Below are positions 40,264 through 58,013 of a stretch of DNA of 64,000 nucleotides, piece after piece. Under the pieces are notes generated by a model. It was given only the letters and a program-made list of their open reading frames with translations, had not been told where the DNA came from and did no database searches. Source of the stretch: Ignavibacteria bacterium. GTDB lineage: Bacteria > Bacteroidota > Ignavibacteria > UBA10030. Each line of letters begins with the position of its first letter. Position 1 is the stretch's first letter. A program made the translations under genes and the position numbers. The stretch covers positions 62,001 to 126,000 of the forward strand of contig VGVZ01000007.1 in NCBI GenBank assembly GCA_016873805.1, in the 5' to 3' direction.

Positions 40264-40595
40264 GATTGCTTCAGCGACTGCTGAACGAATGTGATGATGA
40301 TGAGAGCATCATCGACGGGATTCTTTGACGGAGAGACGAACTTTTCGTTCAGGCGAGCGGCGAGCCGACTCGCGGCCTGTCGCGCGGAACGAGGAGCTCG
40401 GGTATTGCTCCCGAATGATGCCAGCTGCTCCATGATCGATCCGCTGTGCTGATACTCGGATCGATGTTTCGAAAGCTCAGCAACCGCAATTCCTGCCGCC
40501 CGTCGCGCGCAAACCCTCACGCGACTCTCATTTCCCACTCGCTGCGCCTCGTGCGCACGACCGAGTTCGATCCGAATTTCATCAAGCCACGTCAT
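40260..40595 (-). CDS. Uncharacterised all-helical small protein (possibly HEPN-like)
   Basis: ATG at 40595 overlaps the TGA of the upstream hydrolase (ATGA). 111 aa, Arg/Ala-rich helical composition; family unrecognised with certainty. Confidence 0.5.
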   Translation of the reverse strand: MTWLDEIRIELGRAHEAQRVGNESRVRVCARRAAGIAVAELSKHRSEYQHSGSIMEQLASFGSNTRAPRSARQAASRLAARLNEKFVSPSKNPVDDALIIITFVQQSLKQS

Positions 40596-54513: not shown

Positions 54514-57012
54514 ATGGTACGATTGATGATTCAAATTGTTTTGATCCTCGGGTTCCCAAGCTTGCTCTATAGTCAGCAGGAAGGCACGGTGGAAGGGAGA
54601 GTGGTCGATTCGGAAACGCAGCGGGTACTCGAGGGAGCAAACGTGCTTCTTCAGGGAACGGCGATGGGAACGAGTACCAACGTGCATGGTCAGTTCGCTC
54701 TTCAATCAATTCCGCCCGGGCGGTATCTCATCAGTGTGAGCTACGTTGGATATGAAGTGCAGAAGAAAGGCATCGACATTCAGCAGGGAAAGACAACATC
54801 GGTGGTCATTGAACTTGTCCCCTCCGTTCTTCCGGGACAGATGGTCATCGTAACGGCGACGCGTGCTCGTGAACGCGAGACGCCCGTTGCGTTCTCAACG
54901 CTCGATGCAAAGGAAATCGCGAATCGCTACTGGGCACAGGATGTCCCGATGCTTCTTTCTGAGCTGCCCAATGTCTACTCGTATTCCGACAACGGGAATG
55001 GAATCGGATACTCCTACATGAAGATGCGGGGATTCGGTCAGAACCGGATCGGGGTGATGCTGAACGGCGTACCGCTGAACGATGCCGAATCGCACGAGGT
55101 GTTTTGGGTTGATCTGCCTGACGTTGCGACGAGTACCGAGGATATTCAAGTCCAGCGAGGAGTTGGAAGGTCCTTCTACGGGGCGTCTGCGTTCGGCGGT
55201 TCCGTCAATCTGGTGACAAGTCAAAGCGTCCGCAAGCCCGGCATCGAGATCTCCCTCGGTGGGGGAAGTTACAATACGAAAAGATATTCCGTGTCAGGTC
55301 GTTCCGGCCTTTCTGAAAATACTTACAGCATCTACGCTCGTTTCTCGCGTATCGAAACGGATGGATACCGACGGCCGTCGTGGTCGAAACTCTGGTCATA
55401 CTTCGTGGCGGTGAGTCGCTACGATGAGACGATGACGACGCGACTCAACGTATTTGGAGGAATCGAACAGAGCTATCTCTCGTATCTGGGCGTCACGAAA
55501 TCGGAACTTGCGGACTCAGAAAAGCGGAAAGTCAATCCTTTCCAGTATCCGGAGGAGATTGACAATTTTCATCAGCCCCATTTTCAACTGTCGAACGAGT
55601 GGCAAATCACGCCTGCGGCCAAAATGGAAAACACGCTGTTTGCGTTCTTGGGTTTTGGTCACTACACGCAGTTCCGCGCCCGGCGTGACCTCAGGGAGTA
55701 CAACATGTCGCGATTCATCATCCGGGATTCGACGCTTCTTCCCTCGGCCTATCTCCGGAATGTCGACAAAGATGCAGTGAGAGATTCATTCCAGGTGAGA
55801 AACATCGATCTCGTTCGCAAGCGTTCAGTGGACGATCTGGATTTCGGCTGGCTTCCTCGATTCACCCTGAAAACGGAACAAGGAGAGTGGGTGATTGGCG
55901 CAGAGATCCGGAGACACCGTGGTCACCATTGGGGAGAAGTGCTCTGGGCAAATCTGCTTCCGCCGGGAGTAACGCCAAACTGGCGTTACTACGATTACCG
56001 CGTTCCCAAGACATCGATCTCCCTCTATGCGCATCGACTCTACAGAGTCGGCCCGTCGTTGACGCTTACGGGGGATGTTCAGCTCACGCGACATGTGCTT
56101 GATCTGACCGATGAGCGGAACTTCAATGTGACGTTCAACCGCACCTATACGTTTCTGAATCCGCGCATCGGTGCAAATTACAACGTGACCGAACAGCTCA
56201 ACGCTTACCTGAACTTCTCCGTTGCTCAGCGGGAGCCGGCGTTCAAGACCATCCACAATCCACAAGACTACTGGACCAACCCGATCAATCTTCCGAAGAA
56301 CTTCCAAAAGACCGCTTCGGGTTACGCGTACGTTGGGAAAGAAGTGAAGCCGGAGAAGTTCTTTCATCTTGAACTGGGAAGCGGATATCGCACGGATGTG
56401 GGATGGCTGAAGGCAAATCTCTACTGGATGGATTTCCGCGACGAGATTATTGCCAGCGGCCAAATTGACGACAATGGAGTGCCGATCGCCGGCAATGCCG
56501 AAAGGACCGTTCATCGGGGCATAGAGTTGGAAGGATCGGTGTGCGTGGGCTCGTCGCTCACCCTCTCCGGGAATGTCGCGGCCAACGATGATCGGTTCAT
56601 TCGCCATACGGAATACGTGGTGACAGATTGGAACACGGTTCCTCCCATCACCGCGCCAATCAGGTATAACGACAATCGGCTGGGCGGTTTTCCCACAGTC
56701 TTGGGTAATGTGCGCGCGGCGTACAACGTTGGAGGGCTTTTGCTTGGAATACAGCTTCAGCATGTCGGAAGGGTCTACCTCGACAACAGTGAGCGGGAAG
56801 AGCTTTCCGTTGAACCAGTGACAGTGGTGAACGCTTCGCTCGAGTACGCGTTTGCCGATGTGCTCGGCTTCCGTTCGCTTGCGCTGAGGGCAAACGTCAA
56901 TAACCTCGCAAGCAAGCTCTATGCGGCGGCAGGATACGTCGATACGGGTGTGCCGTACTTGATTCCCGCGGCCGACCGGAACTACTTTGCATCAATCACG
57001 ATTGAACTGTAG
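54514..57012 (+). CDS. TonB-dependent outer-membrane receptor with CarboxypepD_reg-like N-terminal domain, predicted thiamine/TPP uptake
   Basis: Signal peptide, GTVEGRVVDSETQRVLEGANVLLQGTAMGTSTNVHGQFALQSIPPGRYLISVSYVGYE, plug and barrel. Substrate inferred from the upstream TPP riboswitch and downstream TPK. Confidence 0.9.
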   Translation: MVRLMIQIVLILGFPSLLYSQQEGTVEGRVVDSETQRVLEGANVLLQGTAMGTSTNVHGQFALQSIPPGRYLISVSYVGYEVQKKGIDIQQGKTTSVVIELVPSVLPGQMVIVTATRARERETPVAFSTLDAKEIANRYWAQDVPMLLSELPNVYSYSDNGNGIGYSYMKMRGFGQNRIGVMLNGVPLNDAESHEVFWVDLPDVATSTEDIQVQRGVGRSFYGASAFGGSVNLVTSQSVRKPGIEISLGGGSYNTKRYSVSGRSGLSENTYSIYARFSRIETDGYRRPSWSKLWSYFVAVSRYDETMTTRLNVFGGIEQSYLSYLGVTKSELADSEKRKVNPFQYPEEIDNFHQPHFQLSNEWQITPAAKMENTLFAFLGFGHYTQFRARRDLREYNMSRFIIRDSTLLPSAYLRNVDKDAVRDSFQVRNIDLVRKRSVDDLDFGWLPRFTLKTEQGEWVIGAEIRRHRGHHWGEVLWANLLPPGVTPNWRYYDYRVPKTSISLYAHRLYRVGPSLTLTGDVQLTRHVLDLTDERNFNVTFNRTYTFLNPRIGANYNVTEQLNAYLNFSVAQREPAFKTIHNPQDYWTNPINLPKNFQKTASGYAYVGKEVKPEKFFHLELGSGYRTDVGWLKANLYWMDFRDEIIASGQIDDNGVPIAGNAERTVHRGIELEGSVCVGSSLTLSGNVAANDDRFIRHTEYVVTDWNTVPPITAPIRYNDNRLGGFPTVLGNVRAAYNVGGLLLGIQLQHVGRVYLDNSEREELSVEPVTVVNASLEYAFADVLGFRSLALRANVNNLASKLYAAAGYVDTGVPYLIPAADRNYFASITIEL

Positions 57013-57175: not shown

Positions 57176-57230
57176 AGCCTGGAGTCGTCCTGAGCGTCCG
57201 CCTGCCGCGCGCAGGGAGTCGTCCTGAGCG
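57176..57230 (+). repeat. Degenerate leading copies of GAGTCGTCCTGAGCG units joined to a CCTGC-cgcgc-GCAGG palindrome
   Basis: ccagcctggagtcgtcctgagcgtccgcctgccgcgcgcagggagtcgtcctgagcg; same units as the array at 57901. Confidence 0.75.
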
Positions 57231-57383
57231 AAGTCGATCTGAGGTAAGTTGTTCGTAAGAGAAGTCGTCCTGAGCGAAGTCGATCTGAGGTAAGTTGTTC
57301 GTAAGAGAAATCGTCCTGAGCGAAGTCGATCTGAGGTAAGTTGTTCGTAAGAGAAGTCGTCCTGAGCGAAGTCGAAGGACGAC
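57218..57383 (+). repeat. Tandem array, 46-bp period, three GTCGTCCTGAGCGAAGTCGA half-palindrome units plus spacer TCTGAGGTAAGTTGTTCGTAAGAGAA, ending in one complete 28-bp palindrome
   Basis: Unit starts at 57218, 57264, 57310, 57356; final copy GTCGTCCTGAGCGAAGTCGAAGGACGAC. Confidence 0.95.
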
Positions 57384-57416
57384 GATGTCAAAATCACATC
57401 AATCCAGAGGGGGGAG

Positions 57417-57728
57417 ATGAGAAGGGGATGGGTGTACATTCTTCTCTGTTCCGATGGAAGCTACTACACAGGCTGCACTTCGAATTTAGAAAAGAGAATA
57501 AACGAGCACAGTCTGGGAGTTTTCGGGGGATACACGTCAAGCCGGCGACCAGTTGAATTGGTCTTCAGCGAGGAATTCAACGACATTCGCGATGCCATTG
57601 CTGCGGAAAGACGGATCAAAGGGTGGACGCGAAGGAAGAAATCCGCGCTGATAAACAGGGACTTCGCGTTGCTTCATGAGCTTGCGGCCTGTCGCAACAA
57701 GAACCATTTCTCGAACCGAAAGAAGTAG
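57417..57728 (+). CDS. GIY-YIG nuclease family protein (UPF0213/YhbQ-like)
   Basis: GWVYILLCSDGSYYTGCTSNLEKRINEHSLG...AIAAERRIKGWTRRKKSALI: GIY-YIG core, catalytic Arg and conserved Glu. Confidence 0.92.
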   Translation: MRRGWVYILLCSDGSYYTGCTSNLEKRINEHSLGVFGGYTSSRRPVELVFSEEFNDIRDAIAAERRIKGWTRRKKSALINRDFALLHELAACRNKNHFSNRKK

Positions 57729-57805
57729 TGAATCGGGATTTGGTGTGGCATGCCGGTTTGCAGACCCGATCCAGGCCGCCGAAAACCTTGGTGGTGTAGG
57801 CTCCG

Positions 57806-57883
57806 TCATGGTTCGACTTCGCTCACCATGACTCATGGTCGACTTCGCTCACCATGACTCATGGTCGACTTCGCTCACCATGA
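57806..57883 (-). repeat. Three tandem palindromes, 26-bp period, TCATGGT-GAGCGAAGTCG-ACCATGA (read on minus strand)
   Basis: Core CGACTTCGCTC at 57814, 57840 and 57866 flanked by TCATGGT/ACCATGA arms. Confidence 0.95.
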
Positions 57884-57900
57884 CCTGGTTCGGCTTCCAA

Positions 57901-58013
57901 CCTGCCGCGGGCAGGGAGTCGTCCTGAGCGCCCGCCTGCCGCGGGCAGGGAGTCGTCCTGAGCGCCCGCCTGCCGCGGGCAGGGAGTCGTCCTGAGCGAA
58001 GTCGAAGGACGAC
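57901..58013 (+). repeat. Tandem array, 34-bp period (CCTGCCGCGGGCAGGGAGTCGTCCTGAGCGCCCG), ending in the complete 28-bp palindrome
   Basis: Unit starts at 57901, 57935, 57969; terminal palindrome 57986-58013 identical to 57356-57383. Confidence 0.95.

Follow-up and report, generated by a model that had tools for sequence, protein, structure and literature searches.

Is a small nuclease gene that lies amid palindromic repeats the partner of those repeats? This question is raised by a locus of an Ignavibacteria bacterium, found in a window of 64 kb (the whole stretch of DNA that was analyzed, to which all positions below refer). REPs fall into two super-families, those with a GTAG tag, which have RAYT partners, and those with a CGTC tag (also TGTC or CCTC), which "apparently lack a dedicated transposase"; transposase genes flanked by CGTC REPs were not found (Di Nocera et al., 2013, PMC3733652).

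A GIY-YIG gene within a repeat island

The sequence-only reading of this island had described a single GIY-YIG gene between identical 28-bp palindromes, flanked to the left and right by further arrays of their core, and this description is accurate. The two palindromes, at 57356-57383 and 57986-58013, are identical direct copies of GTCGTCCTGAGCGAAGTCGAAGGACGAC, and eight exact GAGCGAAGTCG cores are present at 57226-58004, five on the forward and three on the reverse strand. The island consists of the following features:

57181..57218, + strand: REP half split by a second palindrome, CCTGCCGCGCGCAGG (repeat family D2)
57219..57375, + strand: upstream 46-bp tandem array of degenerate REP copies, cores at 57226, 57272, 57318 and 57364
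57356..57383, + strand: upstream REP, GTCGTCCT-GAGCGAAGTCGA-AGGACGAC, a GAG/TCGA element with an 8-bp outer stem
57417..57728, + strand: GIY-YIG nuclease gene, clade 1 (see below), UPF0213-like, 103 amino acids plus stop, PF01541 E 2e-18
57805..57832, - strand: downstream REP with another outer stem, GTCATGGT-GAGCGAAGTCGA-ACCATGAC, in opposite orientation, junction and loop unchanged, both stem arms changed
57813..57890, - strand: downstream 26-bp tandem array with three cores
57915..57985, + strand: 34-bp repeats, REP halves split by CCTGCCGCGGGCAGG (repeat family D2)
57986..58013, + strand: downstream REP, same sequence as the upstream REP

Judged by eye from their motifs, the left neighbor (54514-57012) looks like a TonB-dependent receptor and the right neighbor (to 58734) like a thiamine pyrophosphokinase. 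With up to one mismatch allowed, 13 GAGCGAAGTCG sites are found in the window versus 3 expected; the five that lie outside the island each have one mismatch and are no better than expected by chance. The earlier statement that clear copies are lacking elsewhere in the 64 kb is confirmed. A search for tagged hairpins in the remainder of the window gave one unrelated candidate only, at 40296.

The window REPs share one layout, namely 5' tag, outer stem, GAG, inner stem-loop, TCGA and outer stem. Their 12-base middle GAGCGAAGTCGA is constant and the outer stem varies, being either GTCGTCCT or GTCATGGT; the DNA fold of the upstream REP is given as -6.7 kcal/mol by a folding program. In the tandem units at 57181-57218 and 57915-57985 the REP core is split by the second palindrome CCTGCCGCGGGCAGG, and similar CCTGCC...GGCAGG hairpins are present at a Y1 locus of the same genome (L029).

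The encoded enzyme

The window protein matches GIY-YIG models (PF01541, and T5orf172 weakly) and no Y1 model. Domain and catalytic Y, R, H and E are present, placing it in the small GIY-YIG family (PF01541/UPF0213), whose members 1ywl and 1zg2 are its nearest solved structures and which it resembles in fold family, size and catalytic residues. Residues Y7, Y17, G19, R27, H31 and E64 are intact, and they are at least 98% conserved in both clades found paired with repeats; unlike these, the other sampled clades of small GIY-YIG genes have no such adjoining repeats.

GIY-YIG enzymes include homing endonucleases, and they hydrolyze DNA without a covalent intermediate. A strand transfer of the RAYT kind is therefore not expected, and spread would need host repair. 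The window gene has the nuclease domain in common with GIY-YIG homing endonucleases, and possibly also the spread of an element via cutting and repair. In contrast to them, it is free-standing and intergenic, located in neither an intron nor an intein and interrupting no host gene, and is accompanied by a dispersed structured repeat. At a GIY-YIG locus on a Sphingomonas parapaucimobilis plasmid (L141), the C-terminal residues ALRLRSGRTRE of the protein resemble a repeat translated in frame, and this repeat seems to overlap the 3' end of the gene.

GAG/TCGA elements are concentrated beside related genes

Relatives of the window gene were sought in 247 genomes of the phylum and picked by protein similarity alone. 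Up to 18 kb around each of 60 relatives was taken, with the nearest 40 and the next 20 scored separately. Cores were defined as GAGC-N2-4-GTCGA with a supported stem and were counted near (up to 500 bp from the gene) and far (more than 1.5 kb away). Around the nearest 40 relatives, 86 stem-supported cores were found in 39 kb near the gene versus 16 in 546 kb far from it, a 75-fold enrichment that amounts to 18-fold when only intergenic DNA is compared. None of the next 20 loci contained such a core. Enrichment of the palindrome at GIY-YIG homologues had been set beforehand as a check, and it is strong.

Loci without the simple core show the same architecture with a longer inner hairpin. A general structure search, which asked for GAG and TCGA around an insert of any kind and for an outer stem of 5 bp or longer, detected 95 elements near versus 18 far, and nine permuted control junctions gave 0 to 4 near each. 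Overall, at the 40 nearest relatives, elements within 500-600 bp of the gene are about 60-75 times as dense as those at distances above 1.5 kb. Elements lie close to the gene on both sides in 21 of 40 loci, and the nearest flanking pair has its tags pointing outward in 19 of 39 loci, where a quarter would be expected (p 0.001); dispersed pairs are also seen. Hairpins in general were considered as the source of the signal and rejected: hairpins of at least 7 bp are only about twofold more frequent near than far in all groups, showing that the signal is the tag and the junction and not a generic hairpin.

The repeat is conserved as a folded structure

For structural comparison, 155 elements at 37 of the 40 loci were used. 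In 147 of 155, the nucleotide that follows GAG makes a Watson-Crick pair with the one that precedes TCGA (C-G 98, T-A 33, G-C 16), although pairing at this first inner position was not required by the search. Inner inserts range from 4 to more than 30 nt; C-GNA-G triloops or C-NN-G diloops make up most of the short ones. At -9 to -5, a 5' tag of sequence TGTCA is conserved (T 55%, G 68%, T 69%, C 67%, A 63%); no mirror image of it is seen 3' of the stem, and it is therefore a tag that lies outside the stem. The GAG/TCGA junction may form sheared G-A pairs with a bulged T, and the folding program leaves the middle open in the simple element type.

The repeat is conserved as a folded structure. 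A family defined by sequence only was rejected, because stem sequences change freely from element to element, in contrast to the junction, the pairing and the loop type, which are retained. The proposal that a particular palindrome is the partner of the nuclease had to be revised accordingly: the partner is not one sequence but a conserved structure made up of tag, GAG/TCGA junction and paired inner stem, and the pairing extends over two or more enzyme clades and two or more REP types. At one locus (L229), a REP nested in the inner loop of another REP (GAGTA...GAGCTTGTCGA...GTATCGA) is found at about -75 and +103 relative to the GIY-YIG gene.

The type of repeat tracks the enzyme clade

A tree of 141 GIY-YIG proteins was built from a short alignment, and many of its forks are unresolved. 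The split between clade 2, with 63 genes, and clade 1, with 51 including the window gene, has a branch support of 100; clade 1 comprises all members of the two paired groups outside clade 2, and its unity is less well supported. GAG/TCGA elements flank 46 of 51 clade 1 genes and none of the 63 clade 2 genes (Fisher 1e-26), and they are absent from the remaining 27 GIY-YIG genes. Plain CGTC hairpins, by contrast, flank 34 of 63 clade 2 genes and 5 of 51 clade 1 genes. The split in GAG/TCGA flanks holds within Bacteroidota and relatives in the phylum of the window (clade 1 36/38 versus clade 2 0/18) and within alphaproteobacteria (9/12 versus 0/45). Thus, the repeat type tracks the enzyme and not the host. 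A relative from a Spirochaete also carries the GAG/TCGA element.

Twenty alphaproteobacterial GIY-YIG genes had been picked as distant negatives before the tree was made, and one of them has a plain CGTC hairpin. Half of the 20 were placed in clade 1 by the tree, and most of that half carry GAG/TCGA elements, which amounts to an unplanned blind test.

CGTC REPs have been described in A. lipoferum and N. aromaticivorans (PMC3733652). The GIY-YIG gene of Azospirillum lipoferum 4B has cgtc|ATCCCCGCgaagGCGGGGAT at -109, +21 and +81, and that of Novosphingobium aromaticivorans has inverted copies of cgtc|GCCCCGTGcttgaCACGGGGC at -64 and +4; GIY-YIG genes of Sphingobium and Shinella are likewise flanked by CGTC-type REPs. 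In a sample of 143 alphaproteobacterial genomes with 40 clade 2 genes, 46 perfect CGTC hairpins were present in 32 kb near versus 32 in 494 kb far (22-fold; 24 of 40 loci), and control tags were near zero. Both CCTC and CGTC variants of the tag occur in alphaproteobacteria. GTAG-tagged hairpins are rare at clade 2 genes, with 2 near, and none of 25 alphaproteobacterial Y1_Tnp loci has a CGTC or GAG/TCGA hairpin.

Repeats, Y1 genes and other GIY-YIG genes of the source genome

The source genome (3.2 Mb, 60 contigs) contains 16 exact CTGAGCGAAGTCGA sites, 11 of them outside the island, and a second clade 1 GIY-YIG gene (L017) that is flanked by the same kind of element. A RAYT family matching the repeat had been named as a further check: seven Y1_Tnp matches were obtained in this genome, and none of the seven has a GAG/TCGA element close by.

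One of these Y1_Tnp genes (L032, G000:C25:18751) is flanked by seven TCGTCACGGTATGGACCGTGACGA copies in 51-bp steps and looks like a transposase with a palindrome of its own; its array also scores as CGTC-tagged, but by a different geometry.

Other GIY-YIG genes of the genome, outside both paired clades, adjoin tRNA genes (L018/L022 at G000:C7:49343 and 49706, L025/L026 at C22:41360 and 41721, L019 at C14:65827), which were read by eye as tRNAs for Pro, Ser and Asp. Duplicated tRNA fragments at these loci are split by short hairpin inserts, e.g., GTGCCAGTT[TCCGCCGAAGGCGGATCCGCCTCAGGCGGA]CAACCACTCC. These genes possibly represent a tRNA-targeting, homing-like group.

Gain, loss and co-occurrence

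Between a FabH-like gene and cutC, five species of one genus have the nuclease and REP doublets, and seven have a bare gap of 114-151 bp. Enzyme and repeats are jointly present or jointly absent at this site, and the empty sites are plain intergenic DNA. Divergence of the GIY-YIG gene tracks that of the neighboring CutC; the insertion is therefore old and was lost repeatedly, or it was gained more than once. No movement event or target-site duplication was seen; at this site the flanks are too diverged to define ends. Two genomes that bear repeats, G021 and G171, contain GIY-YIG copies broken by in-frame stops.

Searching the 247 genomes with an exact pattern for a single loop type, TGTCNNNYYGAGCGNAGTCGARR, gave 986 matches in 44 of them and none for the reversed control. 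The pattern occurs in 23 of 46 genomes with a close clade 1 gene versus 21 of 201 others (Fisher 1e-8); the half of the clade 1 genomes without it is to be read in the light of the pattern covering one loop type only. One genome assembled as a single contig and 100% complete (G002) has 165 exact tagged GAGCGNAGTCGA copies and no small GIY-YIG gene, and 20 further genomes have copies without a close clade 1 gene. In eight repeat-bearing genomes of this kind, none of 30 GIY-YIG loci examined was flanked. REPs can thus outlive a recognizable partner or do without one, and repeats without a partner gene are the main weakness of the claim that the enzyme mobilizes them.

Discussion

GIY-YIG genes and REPs are paired in these genomes in a manner specific to the clade of the enzyme, and at one orthologous site the gene is never seen without the repeats or the repeats without the gene. 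We conclude that this is a partnership of nuclease and REP which parallels RAYT and REPIN with an unrelated enzyme. As in REPIN/RAYT systems (PMC3116915), hairpins flank a single enzyme gene, dispersed copies seem often to be inverted doublets and the repeat type goes with the enzyme type; the differences are that the partner here is a GIY-YIG nuclease and not an HUH/Y1 transposase, and that the tag is GTC-like and not GTAG. The window-type element has much in common with CGTC-tagged REPs (PMC3733652), since both are small hairpins with an unpaired 5' tag (CGTC, TGTC or CCTC; TGTC in the window type), seem often to form inverted pairs, are intergenic, occur in many phyla and have no adjoining Y1 transposase. 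It differs by a GAG/TCGA junction within the stem and, in many cases, by an additional inner stem. The continuous stem of 8-9 bp with a loop of 4-5 nt that defines CGTC REPs is seen in the clade 2 elements and not in the window type, whose interruption and long inserts make it a related variant and not a strict member. No dedicated enzyme was reported for CGTC REPs in that study, unlike the GIY-YIG-paired repeats described here.

That the pairing is functional seems to us almost certain. The explanation we favor, and consider fairly probable, is that the island is a unit of nuclease and REPs in which the small GIY-YIG enzyme serves the surrounding tagged hairpins as their dedicated partner, as RAYTs serve GTAG REPs. 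Probably the enzyme acts on hairpin DNA; for the further step, that its action spreads the repeats, we see even chances. The enzyme would recognize a single-stranded or extruded hairpin by its 5' GTC tag and its GAG/TCGA junction, bind it and introduce a nick at or close to it; through host repair or replication, the repeat, its inverted doublets and occasionally the unit that bears the gene might then be copied elsewhere.

An alternative is that something other than the nuclease spreads the REPs and that these are landing sites: the nuclease would cut a REP elsewhere, and recombination would copy the REP-flanked gene into the break. GIY-YIG enzymes are known to include homing endonucleases, the window gene sits between direct copies and some genomes have repeats without the gene. 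Such homing into repeats nevertheless seems unlikely to us, because the empty orthologous sites are without any REPs and give no sign of a gene entering a pre-existing repeat there, and because landing sites would explain why REP type tracks enzyme clade only if each enzyme were strictly specific. A housekeeping role, in which the nuclease resolves or trims hairpins against replication blocks or uses them to control its own expression, and is kept by selection and not by selfish spread, would fit the invariant catalytic residues and the 21 of 40 loci with elements close to the gene both upstream and downstream. The patchy presence at one site within a genus, the copies with in-frame stops in G021 and G171 and the many dispersed repeats all fit a dispensable element better, and we regard this role as improbable.

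It is very improbable that a RAYT or other Y1 transposase mobilizes the repeats with the GIY-YIG gene as a passenger. The genome does have seven Y1_Tnp matches, one of them (L032) with its own palindrome array, yet none of the seven has the GAG/TCGA element close by, the 25 alphaproteobacterial Y1 loci carry neither element, and no transposase gene flanked by CGTC REPs is known from PMC3733652. Chance, or passive build-up of repeats in tolerant intergenic DNA around small genes, is hardly credible: the island is intergenic and rich in other repeats, but the enrichment is still 18-fold against other intergenic DNA, GIY-YIG genes of similar size have no GAG/TCGA element (0/63 and 0/27) and control motifs are not enriched. 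Returning to the partnership of nuclease and REP, the earlier proposal of a non-RAYT analogue of REPIN/RAYT is partly supported by the enrichment at GIY-YIG homologues and by the Y1 genes without the element (seven in the source genome, 25 loci in alphaproteobacteria); its frame was too narrow.

On a broader scale, the CGTC REPs as a super-family, together with the related GAG/TCGA elements, could be mobilized by small GIY-YIG nucleases; as a class of miniature mobile DNA they would spread in many bacterial phyla by hairpin recognition, hydrolytic cleavage and host repair, without a transposase. We regard this as about as likely as not. A REP with a dedicated enzyme is already known as a kind; the enzyme class here is unrelated to the RAYTs. 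The open literature searched, with most subscription journals and preprints outside that search, contained no report of a GIY-YIG/REP pairing. CGTC REPs, present in many alphaproteobacteria, in Neisseria and elsewhere, have been without a dedicated enzyme since 2013 (PMC3733652), and a GIY-YIG partner would answer this question. If true, it would give a function to a common protein family of unknown role, and it would mean that palindromic repeats gained enzyme partners of two unrelated chemistries.
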